Source: an uncultured Roseateles sp. (GTDB lineage: Bacteria; Pseudomonadota; Gammaproteobacteria; Burkholderiales; Burkholderiaceae_C). Taken from it: a stretch of DNA of 64,000 nt. Both the position numbers and the translations under genes were made by a program. Under the pieces are notes generated by a model. It saw only the letters and a program-made list of their open reading frames with translations, made no database searches and had not been told where the DNA came from. Of this stretch, positions 24,715 to 27,988 are shown one piece after another (within the stretch, counting starts at the first letter, position 1; each line of letters starts with the position of its first letter). The stretch lies in assembly GCF_913777145.1 (NCBI RefSeq), contig NZ_CAJYPS010000014.1, positions 310,001 through 374,000 on the forward strand. Reading direction: 5' to 3'.

Positions 24715-26433
<1,719 letters not shown>

Positions 26434-26456
26434 GCGTCGACCGTGAGGCTTGACAT

Positions 26457-26541
26457 GCGGTAGGTTGGGGTGAGTATTTCGCCCCCCCAACGTCCTTGCC
26501 ACTTGGGTTTGTTGGGGTTCTCTGCGTTCACCCCAACCTGC
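26457..26541. repeat. Inverted pair of REP elements (REPIN/BIME-like)
   Basis: AGGTTGGGGTGA at 26462-26473 and its exact reverse complement at 26528-26539 delimit two diverged inverted copies of a short REP-like unit. The right copy alone folds into a hairpin (GTTGGGGT/ACCCCAAC). The GTAGGTTGGGGTGA type of motif is a widespread bacterial REP family, usually spread by RAYT transposases; none is visible here. It begins about 25 bases after the ureC stop. Confidence 0.7.
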
Positions 26542-26599
26542 GTGCTGGGTGGCTTCAAGGTGTCGTCCATTGCTAACCTACCTCGGCTACGGGAGCAAT

Positions 26600-26875
26600 A
26601 TGGTTTCAGAAGCTCGGACATCGACGCTTGCATATGCGCTTTGGGAGGGGTGGGAATGCAAGGTTTGGTACACGGCCCTTGTGTCATTGATTGCTGGCGT
26701 GAGATGGGTTCCTAACTGGGTCGTCGGGCAAGGCTGGCTTACGGACTGGGCAACCGTCGGAGCTCTCCAGGTGCTTTATGTCCTTGCTGTGCTTGTGCTG
26801 GGGCTTTTGGCGCTAACCGCAGTGCTCATTTGGAAGATCGGCCGGCTACGCCAGCGAAGATCCCTCTTCGGCTGA
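26600..26875 (+). CDS. Orphan Trp-rich small membrane protein
   Basis: 91 residues from the ATG at 26600, which has GGGAG six bases upstream. A hydrophobic helix near residues 55-77 (VLYVLAVLVLGLLALTAVLIW) ends in a basic tail KIGRLRQRRS, giving a predicted cytoplasmic C-terminus. Eight tryptophans in 91 residues is exceptional. Codon use (many CTT, CTA, GCA, AGA) is unlike every neighbour, pointing to recent acquisition. I recognise no family. The frame opens 51 bases further 5' but without a ribosome site. It could be a small inner-membrane effector or a decayed fragment. Confidence 0.45.
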   Translation: MVSEARTSTLAYALWEGWECKVWYTALVSLIAGVRWVPNWVVGQGWLTDWATVGALQVLYVLAVLVLGLLALTAVLIWKIGRLRQRRSLFG

Positions 26876-26945
26876 GCACTAGGCTTTGATCAAGATGTGT
26901 ATGTTCTGAGTACCCGCCCGGATTTGGGGAGGTCTCACGTCTTTT

Positions 26946-27558
26946 GCCGGCTGTTTTTGCTGAGAACCTTTCGACTCGCAGCACCGCCGCGGGAGTCCGC
27001 CCCGCGAGGGCGGGTAACTTTTCTCTGTCGCGCCAGAGAAAAGTCACCAAAAGAGAGGCGCCAATTCAACAGCTAGAGCGGGTTTGCTTGATCGGGAGCA
27101 GAGGCCTTCAGGCCAGAGGCGAGCCGCTGCGCTCTCGCGGTGGACTTGTGAAGAGCGCCAGCCATAGTCCCTTCACGCCGGCTAAGGCGCGGCTGCACAT
27201 CGACGCCTGAGGGCGTCAAAGCAAATACGCGCTACGCGCCAAGCCGCGCCGCCCGAGCGGCGCTGCATTTGCATTCGCTCGTGAGCACGGCGTGCAGCCG
27301 CGCGTCGAACGGCCCGGCGGTTCGAGGTCACCGGGTGGTGACAAGTCCACCGCGAGAGCGCAGCGGCTCGCTTGGGTGCAAACGGCCACAGCCAGTCCTT
27401 GTGGTGGACCGCGTCGCAGGGGCTGAGCGCGGTGCGGTTCGGCGCCTCTCTTTTGGTGACTTTTCTCTGGCGCGACAGAGAAAAGTTACCCGCCTGCCGG
27501 GGCGGAATCCCGGCGCGGTGTTGCGAGTTGCAAAGGCTCACTGCAAGAGCAGCCCGGA
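26946..27558. repeat. Nested long inverted-repeat element, non-coding
   Basis: Two arms meet near 27245-27252. A perfect 54-bp segment at 27009-27062 pairs with 27441-27494. A perfect 31-bp segment at 27119-27149 pairs with 27341-27371. A 12-bp segment at 27187-27198 pairs with 27292-27303. Outside the 54-bp arms the match continues imperfectly to about 26946 and 27558. Intervening stretches have diverged. No convincing ORF or ribosome site lies within. The TTTTCTCTG...CAGAGAAAAGT core is a recurrent intergenic motif in beta- and gammaproteobacteria. It may be a MITE-like relic or specify a long structured RNA. Confidence 0.75.
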
Positions 27559-27646
27559 GCAAGCGCTGGAGAACTCAGACCTCACGCCGTTTGACCCCCC
27601 AAGCCCTTTGCGCTTCACTGCACCCACCCCGCCCCGTGAGCCACGC

Positions 27647-27988
27647 ATGAAGCACTACCTGATCTCCTTCCCCAGCCCCGCCATGGACGTGCCCCCCGAG
27701 GAACTCGCCGCGGTGGGTGAGGCTGCTCGCCAGGTCATTCGCGAGGCCAAGGCCGCTGGGGTCTATGTGTTCGCCGGTGGCATCAACGAAGCGGTCCCGC
27801 CCGTCAAGGTCGCTGCCGCTGGCACGACAAGCCACGACACCTATCCGCAGACCAGAGACTTCAACGGCGGCTTCTGCGTGCTGCGCCTGCCCACGCGCGA
27901 GGCGGCGGTCGCCTGGGCCGCGCGCATCGCCCGTGCCTGCCGCTGTGCGCAGGAGTTGCGCGAGTTCGGCGACGACCCCGAGAGCTGA
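27647..27988 (+). CDS. YCII-related (DGPF-type) domain protein
   Basis: 113 residues starting MKHYLISFPSPAMDVPPEEL. The length, the ferredoxin-like alpha/beta pattern and the middle AGVYVFAGGINEAVPP with a closing GGFCVLRLPTREAAVAWAARIA fit the YCII/DGPF superfamily, often encoded near sigma factors and of uncertain biochemical role. I choose the ATG at 27647; the frame continues upstream into the inverted-repeat element without protein character. Codon use is normal for the genome, so chromosomal coding resumes here. It stands alone on the plus strand. Confidence 0.72.
   Translation: MKHYLISFPSPAMDVPPEELAAVGEAARQVIREAKAAGVYVFAGGINEAVPPVKVAAAGTTSHDTYPQTRDFNGGFCVLRLPTREAAVAWAARIARACRCAQELREFGDDPES

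Follow-up and report, generated by a model that had tools for sequence, protein, structure and literature searches.

What is being conserved in the roughly 600-bp palindrome that separates ureC from a small YciI-like gene in this Roseateles genome? The original prediction, made within a window of 64,000 nucleotides (the whole stretch of DNA that was analyzed), described three perfect paired blocks in mirrored order, extended by imperfect outer arms and free of any gene. It proposed selection on pairing, and named a MITE or a dead insertion remnant as the alternative.

The inverted repeat and its end motifs

The element spans about 26957–27555, an extent common to the five other full-length copies in the genome, and lies between the end of ureC (26433) and the start of the YciI-like gene (27647); these names, as well as livG and livF below, were assigned by eye from translations. 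The predicted blocks are exact, with a centre near 27245: 54 bp (27009–27062 / 27441–27494), 31 bp (27119–27149 / 27341–27371), and 12 bp (27187–27198 / 27292–27303). Past the blocks the arms do continue imperfectly, to about 26957 and 27555, and the gene caller leaves the stretch from 26433 to 27647 without a gene. When the interval was shuffled 100 times with dinucleotides preserved, perfect inverted repeats reached 13 bp at most (mean of the longest, 9.4). Blocks of 54 and 31 bp therefore lie far outside chance; a 12-bp block by itself does not.

Each 54-bp arm holds a hairpin of its own, and the two arms of the outer block are copies of a single motif that faces outward. This motif, about 50 nt long at each end, is the conserved unit. 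It is composed of a pyrimidine stretch (L1), a 14–15-bp hairpin (S2), and, ahead of L1, a segment (P1a) that can pair with the hairpin loop, in the order 5′-P1a–L1–S2a–loop with P1b–S2b-3′. In the right motif, read on the plus strand, P1a (27442–27446, GCGCC) would pair with P1b in the loop (27469–27473, GGCGC), a pairing supported by permutation tests elsewhere in the family. L1 (27447–27454, TCTCTTTT) is the putative third strand, parallel to the purine arm AGAGAAAA (27477–27484), with canonical triads at 8 of 8 positions. The S2 hairpin (27455–27490) consists of a lower stem, GGTGAC/GTTACC, and an upper stem, TTTTCTCTG/CAGAGAAAA; it is supported by covariation and lies within a covariance-model match at 27440–27514. 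A short GC-rich hairpin (P3, 27490–27505) follows; GC-rich hairpins 3′ of S2 are frequent among the listed relatives, as judged by eye and uncounted. On the minus strand, the left motif repeats the same sequence in P1a (27057–27061), L1 (27049–27056), and S2 (27013–27048; covariance-model match 26989–27063, minus strand). The sequence of its P3 (26997–27013, minus strand) differs from that of the right P3, and its plus-strand reading appears in the scan for terminator-like sites with a T-containing tail. The interior between the motifs (27063–27440) is variable and partly palindromic, containing the perfect 31- and 12-bp blocks.

A genome search, as the original prediction had proposed, shows the locus to belong to a multicopy family. 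The host genome (4.39 Mb, 35 contigs) carries six full-length copies including that of the window; the five others match over 598–601 bp at 82–85% identity. Partial copies also occur, and two contigs (C6 and C7) match in outer-arm sequence only. Matches extend to 18 of the 20 genus genomes, the host's own included. Several of these return 20–43 rows (both strands counted), and some copies within a genome are up to 98.5% identical over 471 bp.

The alignment of the six copies bears directly on which pairing is maintained. In four of the six, TTTTCTCTG/CAGAGAAAA on the left stands against TTTCTTCTG/CAGAAGAAA on the right: the arms are mismatched to each other, and each alone forms a good hairpin. 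Because the arms of these copies differ while each keeps its own hairpin, pairing between arms is not maintained at the core, and the 610-bp long-range pairing was rejected as a selected structure. The predicted selection on pairing thus stands inside each arm, where it concerns the hairpin, the pairing with the loop, and the mirroring third strand, and falls for pairing from arm to arm across about 600 bp.

Covariation within the motif

Ahead of GGTNAC stands a pyrimidine stretch that mirrors the hairpin's pyrimidine arm; its orientation is parallel to that of the purine arm, T being set over A and C over G. We collected 165 distinct contexts, 141 of which have at least four further Watson–Crick pairs; the other 24 enter neither the position table nor the types. 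At the first free position, the 141 contexts show T/T in 63 and C/C in 76, with two exceptions. The next three free positions agree in 133, 134, and 130 of 141, and the fifth drops to 87/141. Reduced to 33 distinct types, L1 agrees at 124/165 positions (permutation mean 72.3, maximum 95 in 20,000). One sequence per labelled lineage gives much the same picture over 31 lineages: 120/155 (permutation mean 71.9, maximum 93 in 20,000). For this set, one match each was taken from loci chosen by label among L085–L164; several labels are bins, and the lineages are not fully independent because some Burkholderiales bins resemble Pelomonas. Mirroring is poor in Pseudomonas (1/5), Motiliproteus (2/5), Paenibacillus (2/5), and Aliiglaciecola (1/5); the Paenibacillus and Aliiglaciecola sequences, which were kept in the test, are probably chance matches. 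In two loci (L109 and L131), a pair that is inverted into the pyrimidine arm has a G over it, and G over T-A is the triplet suited to such an inverted pair.

Mirror matching of this kind is not predicted by Watson–Crick pairing, dyad protein sites, or shared ancestry. It is as would be expected of a major-groove triple helix of U·A-U and C·G-C triads within an H-type pseudoknot; the C·G-C triads require protonated C. The reference alignment (A1, 90 of 93 references) was preselected for at least four further pairs, short loops, and few loci of the own genus. S2 covariation in it therefore arises partly by selection, and most Pseudomonas forms are absent from it because of the limits on pairs and loops. 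This preselection did not touch L1 past its TTT, P1a, the wobble position, or the lower stem where it was left free.

The proposed pairing of P1a with the loop also holds up through changes of sequence: GCGCC/GGCGC in the window is replaced elsewhere by TGCCC/GGGCA, TCGCC/GGCGA, and CTGCT/AGCAG. Over 107 distinct cases, the longest Watson–Crick run between P1a and the loop averages 4.33, compared with 3.14 when loops are permuted among cases (maximum 3.37 of 300) and 3.18 when loops are shuffled (maximum 3.38). An upstream segment that pairs with the loop, combined with a third strand, implies an H-type pseudoknot with loop 1 seated in the deep groove of stem 2. By its sequence, the motif would belong among the H-type pseudoknots with a major-groove triple helix: P1a would pair with the loop, and L1 would lie as third strand in the deep groove of S2, forming U·A-U and C·G-C triads.

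A pattern unconstrained at the six bases of the linker and at the six 3′ of the hairpin matched 31/399 genomes of the order and 20/159 genera, with no control match in the table. Among the matches listed (first places per genome), 63 distinct strings gave 42 distinct linker pairs, in which 220/252 free lower-stem cells are paired (permutation mean 162.3, maximum 181 in 5,000). The linker is therefore a stem of 5–6 bp; among these listed matches it takes many sequences besides GGTNAC, with the outermost position paired in 21/42. Compensatory changes, whose absence had been named as one mark of a simple MITE or dead remnant, are abundant.

The lower stem also indicates which strand is read. At the wobble position, free on both sides (n = 165), U·G occurs 52 times, G·U 51, U-A 49, G-C 7, C-G 5, G·G once, and A·C never; by lineage, G·U accounts for 19 and A·C for 0 of 31, and the free lower stem has 23 G·U and 4 A·C among the matches listed. 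Since the wobbles are G·U (103, against 0 A·C of 165), and the complementary strand would show A·C mismatches, it is the folded single strand that matters. The fold is selected as an outward-read single strand, of RNA or possibly of single-stranded DNA (ssDNA); tolerance of G·U does not discriminate between the two. We infer that a triple helix does form and that the motif works as RNA and not as ssDNA.

Distribution, mobility, and genomic placement

The original prediction described the core as a recurrent motif of beta- and gammaproteobacteria, and pattern and covariance-model scans confirm that it is real and widespread. The gapped pattern TTTGGTNACTTT..AAAGTNACC matches 11/369 genomes of the class; the control, the same pattern reversed, gives one match each in two genomes. 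In a named collection, at least 119 stretches match, among them stretches from Pseudomonas, Dyella, Lysobacter, Luteimonas, Xanthomonas, Caballeronia, Pelomonas, and Acidovorax. A covariance model built on S2 and the sequence around it (R1, from 90 sequences) matches 70/200 genomes of the order and 43/109 genera at E ≤ 1e-3, and 89/369 genomes of the class and 72/272 genera at E ≤ 1e-4; both counts rest on the S2 model and not on the L1 of each match. Rfam returns no family at gathering score, either in the window at 26800–27700 or in 17 other loci (136 kb). Sub-threshold matches to MIR918 (one on each strand, 33.5 and 30.3 bits; gathering score 268) and Bp1_684 (16.7 bits; gathering score 44) were set aside as a palindrome effect or chance. 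A literature search for six exact motif strings found one of the six, in a single unrelated paper.

High-scoring copies also occur in Oscillospiraceae-labelled bins (L087, L089, L104, L112, L116, L121, L144, and L154, with the pseudoknot form TCGCC...GGCGA) and in a Desulfuromonadales-labelled bin (L102); these reflect either real spread or misbinned contigs. Phages gave no match and plasmids only 47-bp matches in three Pasteurella multocida records, and a phage or plasmid origin was rejected on these grounds. The three records (NZ_CP020346.1, CP084164.1, and NZ_CP113523.1) are filed as plasmids and come from rabbits, two being labelled mixed culture; their 47-bp motif matches are possibly foreign DNA in the assemblies.

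The element has the characters of a MITE: it is short and non-coding, has inverted ends, and occurs as dispersed copies. Presence and absence can be followed at the livG/livF junction in 17 genus genomes (G007 was excluded, the junction being cut by a contig end). Eight are filled, by a pair or by one motif, and nine are unfilled. At seven of the nine unfilled sites the genes either share 1 nt or are separated by 1–3 nt; the other two (L279 and L291) hold a remnant of about 120 nt consisting of the outer ends only. At one filled site (G004, L281) the lower stem reads CCTAC/GTAGG, a different sequence that still pairs. At another (L275), GCGCACTGACATGGCC stands on the right flank as it does at unfilled sites, which suggests a target duplication; the other seven of the eight filled sites are ambiguous. 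Several genus members share elements at the same position, and these keep the motif between flanking genes that are 81–88% identical. Around the window locus itself, no motif occurs within up to 1.5 kb past ureC in any of 15 relatives; the gene 3′ of the window element is near ureC in its own genome only and not in the 15 relatives. By its sequence characters, then, the interval belongs to a palindromic repeat family that is dispersed and of mobile (MITE- or REP-like) type. The MITE alternative in the original prediction is borne out as to dispersal, lack of coding, and presence or absence at an orthologous site; a target-site duplication is suggested at one of the eight filled sites, and a dead remnant is at odds with the compensatory changes.

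The outer ends themselves are made by a smaller palindromic repeat, GCTTTTGC...GAGCCTTTGCAAC, which by eye also occurs without the motif or doubled (left flanks of L275 and L282; L279 and L291), suggesting nested elements.

To describe the layout, 120 loci were scanned for full-length model matches at E ≤ 0.01; 118 had such matches, for a total of 189 motifs. Neighbouring motifs within 1.7 kb form 58 pairs, of which 54 face outward at a spacing of 219–1533 nt, three face inward, and one has both motifs in the same direction. Forty-one motifs are solitary with room beside them, and 32 lie too close to an end to judge. The inward pairs, from Xanthomonas, Luteimonas, and Lysobacter, are only 41–98 nt apart (L090 2310–2517, L105 7717–7909, and L134 6205–6455). 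Several outward pairs have an interior of more than 1.3 kb with no called gene within (L239 8755–10098 and L240 1720–3252, both in G587; and L224, in G571), and in L224 tandem repeats of 99 and 72 bp adjoin the motif. One 18-kb locus (L241 1–17850, in G577) is unusually dense, holding four outward pairs, all complete, together with a fifth motif.

The elements prefer convergent junctions. Among 85 elements with both neighbours called, 37 lie between convergent genes, 4 between divergent genes, and 44 between genes in tandem; element-free junctions of the same loci number 38, 68, and 348, respectively. These counts come from a home-made gene caller checked against the window only, with 46 of 131 elements dropped for want of a called neighbour; an earlier, poorer version of the caller gave 32 convergent and 4 divergent. 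Within the 131 elements there is a single low-scoring gene call (L138). A consensus scan of the locus found no outward promoters, although such a scan says little in a GC-rich genome.

Candidate roles and known counterparts

Taken as a whole, the best explanation is a mobile palindromic family whose ends are pseudoknot–triplex motifs acting at transcript ends, and we give it a probability of about 0.6. Its structural part alone is very probably right, as far as sequence patterns can tell; its functional step is tentative. A transcript reading through the element from the gene on either side would end with the pseudoknot–triplex that the exit arm carries in sense orientation. The fold of that arm could then act as a stability module of the 3′ untranslated region or as a transcript-end module, and the insertion, being thereby harmless or useful at gene ends, would persist. 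A role in 3′-end stability or at transcript ends is favoured by the convergent placement together with the outward sense orientation.

It is also possible, if rather unlikely, that the signal acts at the DNA level: an ssDNA fold recognized by a transposase or a replication protein, as REP hairpins are recognized by RAYT proteins, with the covariation recording mobility and not an RNA role. The dispersed copies, some of them nearly identical within a genome, the palindromic ends, and the presence or absence of the element at an orthologous site would all suit such a signal, and G·T wobbles are tolerated in ssDNA as well. However, the two motifs lie on opposite strands, so that one strand of ssDNA has only one of them in sense, and where several genus members share a copy at an orthologous position the fold is kept, a sign of something beyond transposition. 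Further, a linker of 0–1 nt across 5–6 bp fits A-form RNA better.

A bidirectional intrinsic terminator, in which a GC-rich hairpin followed by a T-rich stretch halts transcripts arriving from either side, is quite unlikely. It could account for the preference for convergent junctions and for the six terminator-like sites in 26430–27700 (shuffle mean 1.6, sd 1.3), but the T stretches there are displaced, beginning some bases past the stem, or interrupted. Termination needs neither the mirroring of L1, nor the loop pseudoknot, nor wobbles confined to the outward strand. In addition, 44 of the 85 elements lie between tandem genes, including the copy between livG and livF, which are read in the same direction; the fit to a strong terminator is therefore poor. 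A plain MITE or dead insertion remnant, its structure due to shared ancestry and gene conversion between copies, would explain why one variant tends to be common to the copies within a genome and why remnants persist with outer ends only, but it is very improbable, since third-strand and lower-stem covariation persists on distinct types (the third strand also on one sequence per lineage) and neither ancestry nor conversion predicts mirror matching or G·U without A·C.

The preferred reading, a pseudoknot–triplex carried by a mobile palindrome, has parallels among known systems. Telomerase RNA and the SAM-II riboswitch contain H-type pseudoknots with a major-groove triple helix, in which pyrimidines of loop 1 lie in the deep groove of stem 2. 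The present motif resembles them by description in this placement of loop 1. Unlike those single RNAs or riboswitches, it is a multicopy repeat, arranged in outward pairs within a palindromic element.

Going by the available portion of Holder et al. (2015, PMC4666352), the closest kind in print is the intrastrand triplex repeat, of which TMECO is the best studied: a dispersed, intergenic repeat of three consecutive same-strand blocks able to form a triplex, with five cases in E. coli of two copies close together in inverted orientation. TMECO is described there as GC-rich, with loops of 3–6 and 3 nt, as forming a purine-motif DNA triplex, and as lacking strand bias and lying more often upstream of ORFs. 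The present element is likewise dispersed, intergenic, and three-block, with copies in inverted pairs; unlike TMECO as so described, it has a linker stem of 5–6 bp, a loop pseudoknot, a covarying third strand, and a preference for convergent junctions. The TMECO block pattern, CCCTCNCCC / GGGNGAGGG, has 0 forward and 0 reverse matches in the element's own genome and matches 79/369 genomes of the class. The ITxF definition, as given in that portion, calls for three same-strand blocks of 6–15 nt with canonical triads, one mismatch being permitted from 7 nt, and loops of 1–6 nt (PMC4666352). By eye, the right motif falls within it if the blocks are 9 nt long and contain the one mismatch allowed, both loops then measuring 6 nt; taking the 8 perfect triads instead gives a hairpin loop of 8 nt, beyond the limit. 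The words pseudoknot, Xanthomonas, and Burkholderia are absent from the main text of Holder et al. (2015, PMC4666352), and the case made in its available portion is built on sequence patterns and the biophysics of one motif, not on covariation.

MITE- and REP-type repeats offer a further likeness. The R0 and R2 repeats of Pseudomonas fluorescens are described, in the available portion of Silby et al. (2009, PMC2718517), as hairpins from inverted repeats with ends identical to insertion-sequence ends. The present element shares with such repeats its intergenic position, its inverted repeats around a variable core, and its many copies; the pseudoknot and triplex set it apart from R0 and R2 as described there (PMC2718517).

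Possible triplex repeats of bacteria are therefore already in print, as the available portion of Holder et al. (PMC4666352) attests, and the covariation of the third strand is the addition made here. A stronger version of the functional reading, unlikely as it stands, would be a widespread bacterial RNA in which outward pairs of a pseudoknotted triple helix, housed in a mobile palindrome, cap and protect the 3′ ends of transcripts from both convergent flanking genes. Triple helices protect some eukaryotic and viral RNAs; if that version were true, this 3′-end-capping fold would be their bacterial counterpart. If RNA is the working form, the family would represent a structured RNA matched in 89 of the 369 sampled genomes of the class, and one for which Rfam gave no hit at gathering score in the 18 stretches compared. 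The third strand changes along with both strands of the hairpin across many lineages, and the motif may thus offer a natural triple helix that can be tested in ordinary laboratory bacteria.
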